This document shows positions 1 through 6,699 of a stretch of DNA of 13,111 bases, in pieces. The number at the start of each line of letters is the position of its first letter. Position 1 is the stretch's first letter. A program made the position numbers and the translations under genes. A model generated the notes under the pieces. That model made no database searches, was not told the DNA's origin, and worked only from the letters and a program-made list of their open reading frames with translations. Source of the DNA: an uncultured Nitrosotalea sp. (GTDB taxonomy: Archaea > Thermoproteota > Nitrososphaeria > Nitrososphaerales > Nitrosopumilaceae); contig CAMLDG010000002.1 of the NCBI GenBank assembly GCA_946478655.1, positions 1 to 13,111 of the forward strand, in the 5' to 3' direction.

Positions 1-1
1 G

Positions 2-160
2 TTAGAGGCTCCCAATGGTACAGACATAGAACAGACCCAAGCCACTCCCCAACCCAAGAAAGATGCATCACTTGAGCTTCTCAGAGTCAGACTTGCAGAA
101 GGACAGATATCAATAGAGGAGTTTCGAGTGCTCAAAAAAGCCCTAACAGAGGAAGAATAA
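2..160 (+). CDS. C-terminal fragment of a SHOCT-domain protein
   Basis: Reading from base 2 gives 52 residues up to a TAA, with the 5' part outside the window. The first half is a Pro/Gln/Thr-rich linker. The last 30 residues (LELLRVRLAEGQISIEEF and following, ending in LKKALTEEE) match the SHOCT pattern: a short amphipathic helix, a G-x-I-s/t-x-E-E-F turn, then a second helix. SHOCT domains are short C-terminal modules, often at the end of membrane or secreted bacterial and archaeal proteins, and are thought to mediate oligomerisation or interaction. The function of the full protein cannot be read from this piece. It ends 147 nt before the tubulin-like gene on the same strand, too far to assume one transcript. 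Confidence 0.72.
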   Translation, partial: LEAPNGTDIEQTQATPQPKKDASLELLRVRLAEGQISIEEFRVLKKALTEEE

Positions 161-307: not shown

Positions 308-1696
308 TTGTCAAAGTTTGCCCCATTACCACCAGCGCCAGTTATCATGACATGTTTTGGCCATTGTGGCATTGGTCTTGGCGCTGAAACATACAGAAGA
401 CTATTGATTGATGTCGGGGCAGACCCTCTAAAGCCAACATTGAAGGGAGAAAAAGATGAATCTCGTATACTCAAAAGATATGGAAGTACCATCTTACGAT
501 TTCCAAATGCTTATGGAGGCAGTGAAATTCCGCTCATTCCAAGAGCCCTCTTAATTGATCTTGATCCAAGAGCTGCCAATTTAATATTACAATCATACCC
601 AGACTTGTTTGCATTAAGAGACAAGCATGTAATTTCAGGTGCAGGAGGTGCTGCAAGAAACTGGGCAGAAGGCCGTACAAGATTCATCAAAGAAGTCAGT
701 ACAAAGTATGACATGCAAAAACAACTTGCAAGTTTATCTCCGGAACCAGTAAGAGGGTTTACAGTTCCATTTGCAATGGGAGGAGGTACAGGTGCTTCAT
801 TTGCAAGTGCCTTTATGCAATATATCAAAAAGGACACAAAAGAGCATGCAACAATTGCATCATTTGGATTATTACCAGAATTTGGATGGGATCCAGTAAT
901 TCTAGAGGCATCAGCCATCAACATAGTGATGAACCTAGAACACCAGATAAAATACAGTGACTGTTCAATTCTATTTTCTAACAAGCGATTAAGAGAACTT
1001 GCACAAAGACATGAAAAGAAACTAGACAAAATGTCTTCAATCATAGATGACCTTCCAAAAGAACACGAAGTAGGCTGGAAGGATTACCGTGGAATGAATC
1101 TGATTGCAGCAAATGCAATGTCTATGTTTACTGCATCTTTTGCAAGAGAGACAGAATGGGATATGTCAAACTATAGAACATGGCTTGCAACAAAGAGACC
1201 AAGATTTGCAATTCCGTGGGTAATTCCGATTGTTCCAGAAGAGAGACAATGGAGCTCAGACTTGATGACAAGTACTAAACACAATACCATGGAGGGAATC
1301 GTAGAACACATCAACAAGAAAGAAGATGGAGTATTGTTTGATATTGACGAAGCTGATATCAGGGATAAGGGAGGTCCAAAAGATTCCTGTTGTGCACTTG
1401 TCAAAGTGAAAGGAGACTTTGAAGCAAAGGAAAGAGACATTCTAAAGAACATGATAAAGGACAGATTCCACATTGAAGAATCAAGAATGATATTCATCAA
1501 GATTCCAATATTAGAGACAGAGCAAGCTAATGTCACAATACTTGTCAATACAAAGGCAATCGGACCAAAAATATTAGAGATTGCAAGCGAAGCAGAAGCT
1601 TCATGGGATGCATTCAAAGACGAATATGGCAAGTGGGGATTGTCCACTGAAGAATTCAAGGCAAGCCTTATGGACGTAGTCCATGAGTTTAGCTAG
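308..1696 (+). CDS. Tubulin-superfamily GTPase, artubulin-like
   Basis: A 462-residue cytoskeletal GTPase of the tubulin/FtsZ fold, closer to tubulin than to typical FtsZ. In order: phosphate loop GHCGIGLGAE (18-27); PRALLIDLDP (78-87), like tubulin PRAVLVDLEP; GAGGAARNWAEG (111-122), like tubulin GAGNNWAKG; glycine loop GGGTGAS (158-164); and the guanine-contact residues N225 (SNKRL), Y260 and N264, spaced like tubulin N206, Y224 and N228. About 17 extra charged residues lie between N225 and Y260. The T7 loop (about 283-290, EWDMSNYR) lacks the canonical N-x-D-x-x-E/D, so GTP hydrolysis may be weak or absent. Tubulins and FtsZ hydrolyse GTP by donating T7 to the next subunit. The TTG start is preferred because the next Met (residue 14) would cut into the first beta strand. 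The downstream coiled-coil gene is 2 nt away. The alternative label is the divergent thaumarchaeal FtsZ. The superfamily call is firm; the exact subgroup is not. Confidence 0.85.
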   Translation: MSKFAPLPPAPVIMTCFGHCGIGLGAETYRRLLIDVGADPLKPTLKGEKDESRILKRYGSTILRFPNAYGGSEIPLIPRALLIDLDPRAANLILQSYPDLFALRDKHVISGAGGAARNWAEGRTRFIKEVSTKYDMQKQLASLSPEPVRGFTVPFAMGGGTGASFASAFMQYIKKDTKEHATIASFGLLPEFGWDPVILEASAINIVMNLEHQIKYSDCSILFSNKRLRELAQRHEKKLDKMSSIIDDLPKEHEVGWKDYRGMNLIAANAMSMFTASFARETEWDMSNYRTWLATKRPRFAIPWVIPIVPEERQWSSDLMTSTKHNTMEGIVEHINKKEDGVLFDIDEADIRDKGGPKDSCCALVKVKGDFEAKERDILKNMIKDRFHIEESRMIFIKIPILETEQANVTILVNTKAIGPKILEIASEAEASWDAFKDEYGKWGLSTEEFKASLMDVVHEFS

Positions 1697-6339: not shown

Positions 6340-6699
6340 TTATAGGTTATCCCCAAAATTTCTTGTGTGTGTATCAACTTCATCTTGTGGAGATGTAGAT
6401 TTGTCTTCATGTTTGTGTTCGCTTTTGTGAATACGTCCCTCCATCTTTTTCTCATGTTCTTTTCGAGAGTGGTGGAGTCTATCGGTTTCATGGATAAACT
6501 CTTTTCCACAATTATCACACTTGACAATATCATGATGATGATCATGACGTGCATGTTTTATCAAATCATCATAGACTGTAAATTTGACACTACATTGATC
6601 ACATTTGAATTTCTTTTTAAAAAGATCCAATGACAACAGAAAATGGTCACAGTGTATTAAAACTGTCGCATAAAACCATTTATTTTTATTTTTCATCAT
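6340..6699 (-). CDS. Two-finger C2H2 zinc-finger protein
   Basis: Up to 119 residues. Two C2H2 fingers are visible, each CX2CX12HX4H: C33/C36/H49/H54 and C61/C64/H77/H82. The tail after residue 85 is His/Glu/Lys-rich and charged. Small C2H2 proteins occur in archaea as putative DNA-, RNA- or protein-binding factors, but the target here is unknown. The start is uncertain. The ATG at 6699 adds a 25-residue N-terminus unlike a finger domain. An in-frame TTG at 6630 (or 6636) begins just before FKKKFKCDQC and has a TATTAAAA element at 6655-6662 with leaderless spacing, so the shorter 97- or 99-residue form is plausible. It faces away from the thioredoxin/NHL gene and converges with the secreted-protein gene. 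Confidence 0.7.
   Translation of the reverse strand: MMKNKNKWFYATVLIHCDHFLLSLDLFKKKFKCDQCSVKFTVYDDLIKHARHDHHHDIVKCDNCGKEFIHETDRLHHSRKEHEKKMEGRIHKSEHKHEDKSTSPQDEVDTHTRNFGDNL
6655..6662 (-). promoter_or_regulatory. TATA-like element inside the longest form of the C2H2 gene
   Basis: On the reverse strand this reads TTTTAATA. It is centred about 28 nt before the in-frame TTG at 6630 and about 22 nt before the one at 6636, matching the leaderless spacing of the neighbours. It argues for a shorter C2H2 protein than the ATG-initiated form. Confidence 0.35.

Follow-up and report, generated by a model that had tools for sequence, protein, structure and literature searches.

An acid-amide swap in the T7 loop of Nitrososphaeria artubulins and a recurrent partner gene

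An artubulin gene and its relatives

The window analysed here, a stretch of 13,111 nucleotides from an uncultured Nitrosotalea sp., starts within a gene of which the C-terminal end is present (positions 1-160, forward strand; the tail appears SHOCT-like by eye). On the same strand lie a gene for a 462-aa protein (308-1696), with a TTG start inferred from homologues that share the N-terminus, and, beginning 2 nt past its stop codon, a gene for a 181-aa protein (1699-2244). The larger product matches the Pfam Tubulin family (PF00091) with 59.6 bits against a cut-off of 33 and has no NCBIfam match up to an E of 1. An earlier sequence-only reading of this DNA had delimited the same reading frame and named several GTPase motifs in it, and both are present in the sequence.

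Judged from sequence comparison, the gene at 308-1696 is an artubulin, that is, a member of an already known tubulin-related family, and its host is close to Ca. Nitrosotalea. The assignment follows because the protein is 77% identical to an orthologue at a Nitrosarchaeum locus (L049), where the gene order, triosephosphate isomerase, DNA polymerase, dCMP deaminase, Snf7 and artubulin, is that of the published artubulin neighbourhood (PMC3349469); orthology was thus judged via the L049 gene, in place of the original limnia and koreensis sequences. The family is known from Nitrosarchaeum through the 2012 work of Yutin and Koonin (PMC3349469), and an artubulin of Ca. Nitrosotenuis uzonensis has also been reported (PMC3835317).

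Our scan of GTDB species genomes returned 86 relatives, the best 80 of which were kept as loci; those at L003-L019, mostly labelled Ca. Nitrosotalea or Thaumarchaeota, are 93-99% identical to the window artubulin. There is one artubulin match per genome in 83 of the 86 artubulin genomes, and the best 120 of 160 rows of a profile search against the protein database were all further artubulins. Two loci titled Gammaproteobacteria bacterium and bacterium (L038 and L064) carry artubulins that are 79% and 54% identical, respectively, and are probably mislabelled or contaminated. The dN/dS ratio of artubulin is 0.00-0.03 in six comparisons with Nitrosotalea-like loci and that of the downstream gene is 0.03-0.19 (6 pairs), which argues for a conserved design and not decay; by this estimate, strong purifying selection acts on the artubulin gene.

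Gene neighbourhood and the downstream partner

According to the 2012 description, Snf7 adjoins artubulin (PMC3349469), and according to a 2013 report, it is absent in N. uzonensis; Snf7 adjacency is therefore not taken here as defining artubulin (PMC3835317). The published functional guess, joint action of artubulin and Snf7 in division, is based on a neighbourhood that tblastn with a single query, the L049 Snf7, detected at 7 of the 80 loci, six of the 73 negative loci holding less than 1 kb of upstream DNA. In contrast to the Nitrosarchaeum artubulin, those of Nitrosotalea have no Snf7 neighbour detectable with this query, and the 181-aa gene lies downstream in both.

A homologue of this gene, hereafter the partner, directly follows artubulin in each of the 77 loci whose 3' sequence extends for 142 nt or more (in the other three of the 80, which have 48, 2 and 0 nt, it was too short for the test), and a partner is present in all 86 artubulin genomes among 400 genomes of the class. 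Two genomes (G113 and G375) have two artubulins each, every one with an adjoining partner, a picture that mixed assemblies could also give. The partner is predicted to consist of a helical hairpin (residues 4-51 and 60-92) and a small alpha/beta domain (model pLDDT 92.4). Each Pfam family was matched by at most 2 of the 34 members, a PDB sequence profile search gave weak matches, mostly to coiled coils, and Foldseek returned no recognised fold (best E 0.12); these results neither establish a known fold nor speak against one. A relationship to Snf7/CdvB was considered and found no support (hhalign probability 0.8). A general statement in the literature is that most of the genes surrounding archaeal tubulin-like genes encode coiled coils (PMC9871819), and a 2012 figure legend mentions a 'conserved hypothetical protein' near artubulin (PMC3349469), which may or may not be this partner; in the portions of the literature covered, we found no passage that singles out the partner gene.

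The pairing is not strict. A partner match without an artubulin match occurs in 39 genomes, mostly in two other families, which implies that the partner has or had another role. Family f9 (6 of the 39 genomes) has a full-length, divergent partner, whereas in family f10 (29 of the 39) the match covers the partner model from position 52 onward only; no artubulin was detected in the 14 partner-only loci examined (4 of f9 and 10 of f10). At four f9 loci (L129-L132), the divergent partner adjoins a gene that by eye resembles radical-SAM, and at eight f10 loci (L133-L137, L145, L146 and L148), the shorter homologue, without the N-terminal part, lies in other gene neighbourhoods. Among the remaining genomes, G376 is a contig-edge case in which the artubulin C-terminus is present, and G260 is probably the same; G088 and G197 contain broken partner remnants and no detected artubulin, which fits loss of both genes. 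Remnants of the partner that contain stop codons lie at L147:3868-3987 and L142:2055-2577, in genomes without detected artubulin. At two further loci (L138:3810-4883 and L139:3871-5206), artubulin begins at about residue 295 and about residue 230, respectively, next to an intact partner, such that most of the GTPase domain is missing, through either real truncation or an assembly fault.

Tubulin affinity and the T7 loop

The claim of the sequence-only reading that this GTPase is of the tubulin type and not of the FtsZ type is borne out by profile, tree and fold comparisons. In hhalign, artubulin scores 98.7% across 386 columns against alpha-, beta- and gamma-tubulin, compared with 10.7% against Nitrososphaeria FtsZ. 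The phylogenetic check proposed in that reading puts the gene outside canonical FtsZ: artubulins and tubulins are split from FtsZ, CetZ and Nmar_1262-type sequences with support 100/99, and FtsZ forms its own group (95/99). CetZ was likewise rejected, given that artubulin falls outside the CetZ-like group (100/100; n = 4, including two identical rows; the name was given by eye, on the basis of the N-terminus). The tree includes three tubulins and, because full Asgard tubulin sequences are missing from it and long branches meet, it gives no position for artubulin with respect to Asgard tubulins; published passages also describe artubulins as sitting on a very long branch, in a position that is not fully settled (PMC13394414).

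The best 60 of 170 PDB sequence matches are all tubulins or tubulin-like proteins (Asgard, Odinarchaeal and eukaryotic), with no FtsZ, and the listed fold matches of the artubulin model are tubulins; FtsZ is absent among the 50 VIA-align fold rows listed, a result still compatible with fold similarity to FtsZ. Asgard AtubA/AtubB and OdinTubulin are among both the best sequence matches and the listed fold matches; AtubA/B, in distinction, form heterodimers and microtubules (PMC13394414). Identity to beta-tubulin chains is 18-19% among the matches listed. Altogether, we favour tubulin over FtsZ as the nearer relative of artubulin; artubulins have been cited as possible relatives of the eukaryotic tubulin ancestor.

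Several homologues bear the source name 'cell division protein FtsZ', so the possibility of an ordinary thaumarchaeal FtsZ losing its function, as proposed for Nmar_1262, has to be weighed. We regard it as hardly credible, given that tree and profile comparisons set artubulin apart from FtsZ, that its dN/dS is so low, and that the nearest genome examined (L002) has a separate Nmar_1262-like gene. This second gene encodes 317 aa with AGKSGAA at the G-box position and was assigned by motif and length, in place of a comparison with Nmar_1262 itself, for which an AGKAGSA G-box and missing hydrolysis residues have been noted (PMC3684127). Both proteins belong to the tubulin/FtsZ superfamily, but they differ: the Nmar_1262 type has 316-317 aa, one or the other of these G-boxes, a T7 region with gaps in all three aligned rows of this type, and a different branch in the tree, whereas artubulin has 462 aa, GGGTG and a T7 loop. 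The Nmar_1262 type was accordingly rejected for the window gene, in which GGGTG and T7 are both present and from which the look-alike gene in L002 is separate. Of the two items of prior knowledge invoked in the sequence-only reading, artubulin therefore applies to the window gene, and the hydrolysis-deficient thaumarchaeal FtsZ concerns the other paralogue. Relatives of the latter occur in other Nitrososphaeria (L149-L151 and L157), and three of these four retain a GGxTGSG box, so the lost G-box may be derived.

The alignment shows a tubulin-like guanine pocket in artubulin, with a conserved GGGTG box (T4, GGGTGAS, residues 158-164; 779-799, forward strand). The guanine contacts N225, Y260 and N264, previously read as tubulin-like, pair in hhalign with N206, Y224 and N228 of alpha-tubulin, and the H7 stretch described as gapless indeed aligns without gaps from Y260 to S277, with gaps flanking it. 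One of these reflects the spacing between N225 and Y260, 35 residues compared with 18 in alpha-tubulin: the H6-H7 loop region (residues 234-256; 1007-1075, forward strand) contains about 17 residues that have no alpha-tubulin counterpart in hhalign. In the T3 loop (GGAARNW, residues 113-119; 644-664, forward strand), R117 replaces tubulin N101.

Directly after a segment that is a net 2 residues shorter than in alpha-tubulin comes the T7 loop (E283-W-D285-M-S-N288; 1154-1171, forward strand), within EWDMSNYR at residues 283-290. The loop had been called abnormal, with N or R in place of the catalytic acid; because hhalign and MAFFT on a mixed set give the same register (E283 = N249, D285 = D251 and N288 = E254 of alpha-tubulin), the residue is N288 and not R. 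Thus, N-x-D-x-x-E of alpha-tubulin becomes E-x-D-x-x-N, with acid and amide trading ends; position 254 lacks the acid characteristic of hydrolysing microtubule-type tubulin, but acids are still present in the loop, since E283 stands where N is usual. The same motif, as opposed to N-x-D-x-x-D, together with the separate FtsZ group in the tree, led us to reject canonical FtsZ.

Of 129 homologues, 128 have the pattern RETEWDxxNxRTWL, and the remaining one (P0094) has a deletion there; N288 occurs in 87 of 88 loci, with serine in L033. In 80 of these 88 loci, retrieved by means of two peptide patterns of which one is SF[AIT]RETEW, conservation of E283 is partly selected for because the pattern includes it; N288 lies outside, and the 8 loci from the profile search (L113-L120) also carry the T7 motif. 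In the A3 alignment, E283, D285, N288 and R117 are invariant in all 55 rows, as is D86 (alpha-tubulin E71). The AlphaFold model has pLDDT below 50 at residues 283-286 and is unreadable at T7 there. The words 'T7 loop' and 'catalytic' are absent from the main texts of PMC3349469 and PMC9871819 and, in the available passages of PMC13394414, are not applied to artubulin. The protein family itself is known; what is new here is the swap inside T7, together with the recurrent partner.

Likely GTPase behaviour

Artubulin resembles eukaryotic beta- and gamma-tubulin in the tubulin fold, the guanine contacts and the lack of an acid at T7 position 254, where beta-tubulin has K, gamma-tubulin, in the alignment, G, and artubulin N. 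Gamma-tubulin nucleates. Microtubules with alpha-tubulin E254N show no GTP hydrolysis and no catastrophes (PMC8764682), and K254 of beta-tubulin and, by prediction, K248 of AtubA do not support hydrolysis (PMC13394414). Artubulin differs from beta- and gamma-tubulin in having E in place of the first T7 asparagine, in the T3 residue R117 and in the H6-H7 insertion, and beta-tubulin works beside a catalytic sister, whereas artubulin is mostly the single match in its genome. By analogy, the simplest inference is that artubulin hydrolyses GTP slowly or not at all; hydrolysis stays conceivable, because the loop still has two acids, E283 and D285.

The likeliest form of the protein is a GTP-stabilised tubulin with slow turnover. 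Artubulin would bind GTP and assemble longitudinally like other tubulins, the incoming T7 loop leaving the active site short of efficient completion, so that GTP would stabilise the assemblies and their turnover would be slow, a situation comparable to that of beta-tubulin K254 or engineered alpha-tubulin E254N. The co-encoded 181-aa protein would bind artubulin and control assembly, disassembly or attachment, and artubulin would serve as a stable scaffold or as a seed and would probably not belong to the core Cdv division machinery. We give this explanation as a whole, slow-turnover assemblies with a co-encoded controlling partner, an even chance of being correct. A mixed polymer is also conceivable, because some artubulin genomes hold other tubulin/FtsZ genes too.

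Alternatively, catalysis could have been relocated, with E283, at the tubulin N249 position, acting as the acid, helped by D285 and perhaps R117 of T3, in an active, dynamic GTPase. The invariance of E283, D285, N288 and R117 in the A3 alignment makes this a fair rival, and the swap leaves the acid count in the loop unchanged; but five residues separate N249 from E254, which occupy distinct sites in the loop and helix and hence are no obvious substitutes for one another, and we found no precedent in the portions of the literature covered, so that we consider relocation unlikely.

In tubulins, the T7 and H6-H7 surfaces form longitudinal contacts. The conserved H6-H7 insertion, the shortened segment before T7 and the recurrent partner gene would also suit a non-polymerising GTP-binding regulator, a GTP-locked monomer or small complex in which these surfaces bind a partner instead of another artubulin. 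The paralogue Nmar_1262, although of a different family, formed no polymers in yeast (PMC3684127). The full-length tubulin fold predicted by the model, including the C-terminal helices, speaks against such a regulator, which seems to us improbable.

Slow-turnover assembly remains our preferred reading. The observations of the sequence-only reading hold, and its interpretation does so in part: of the two behaviours it offered, slow turnover stays plausible, whereas none of the results here demonstrates a non-polymerising regulator, and it anticipated neither the exchange of acid and amide nor the partner. As a broader possibility, somewhat less likely than not, the two genes may form a hitherto unrecognised tubulin system of Nitrososphaeria, in which E-x-D-x-x-N silences or relocates hydrolysis and a coiled-coil partner, not Snf7, controls assembly. 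No report of an artubulin function, and no GTPase or polymerisation measurement on one, was found in the accessible parts of the literature on the family; the family-wide T7 swap predicts stable GTP assemblies and, with the recurrent partner gene, makes the function testable.

Elsewhere in the window, the reverse strand at 6340-6699 encodes a 119-aa protein with weak Pfam matches to C2H2 zinc fingers, here in an archaeon.
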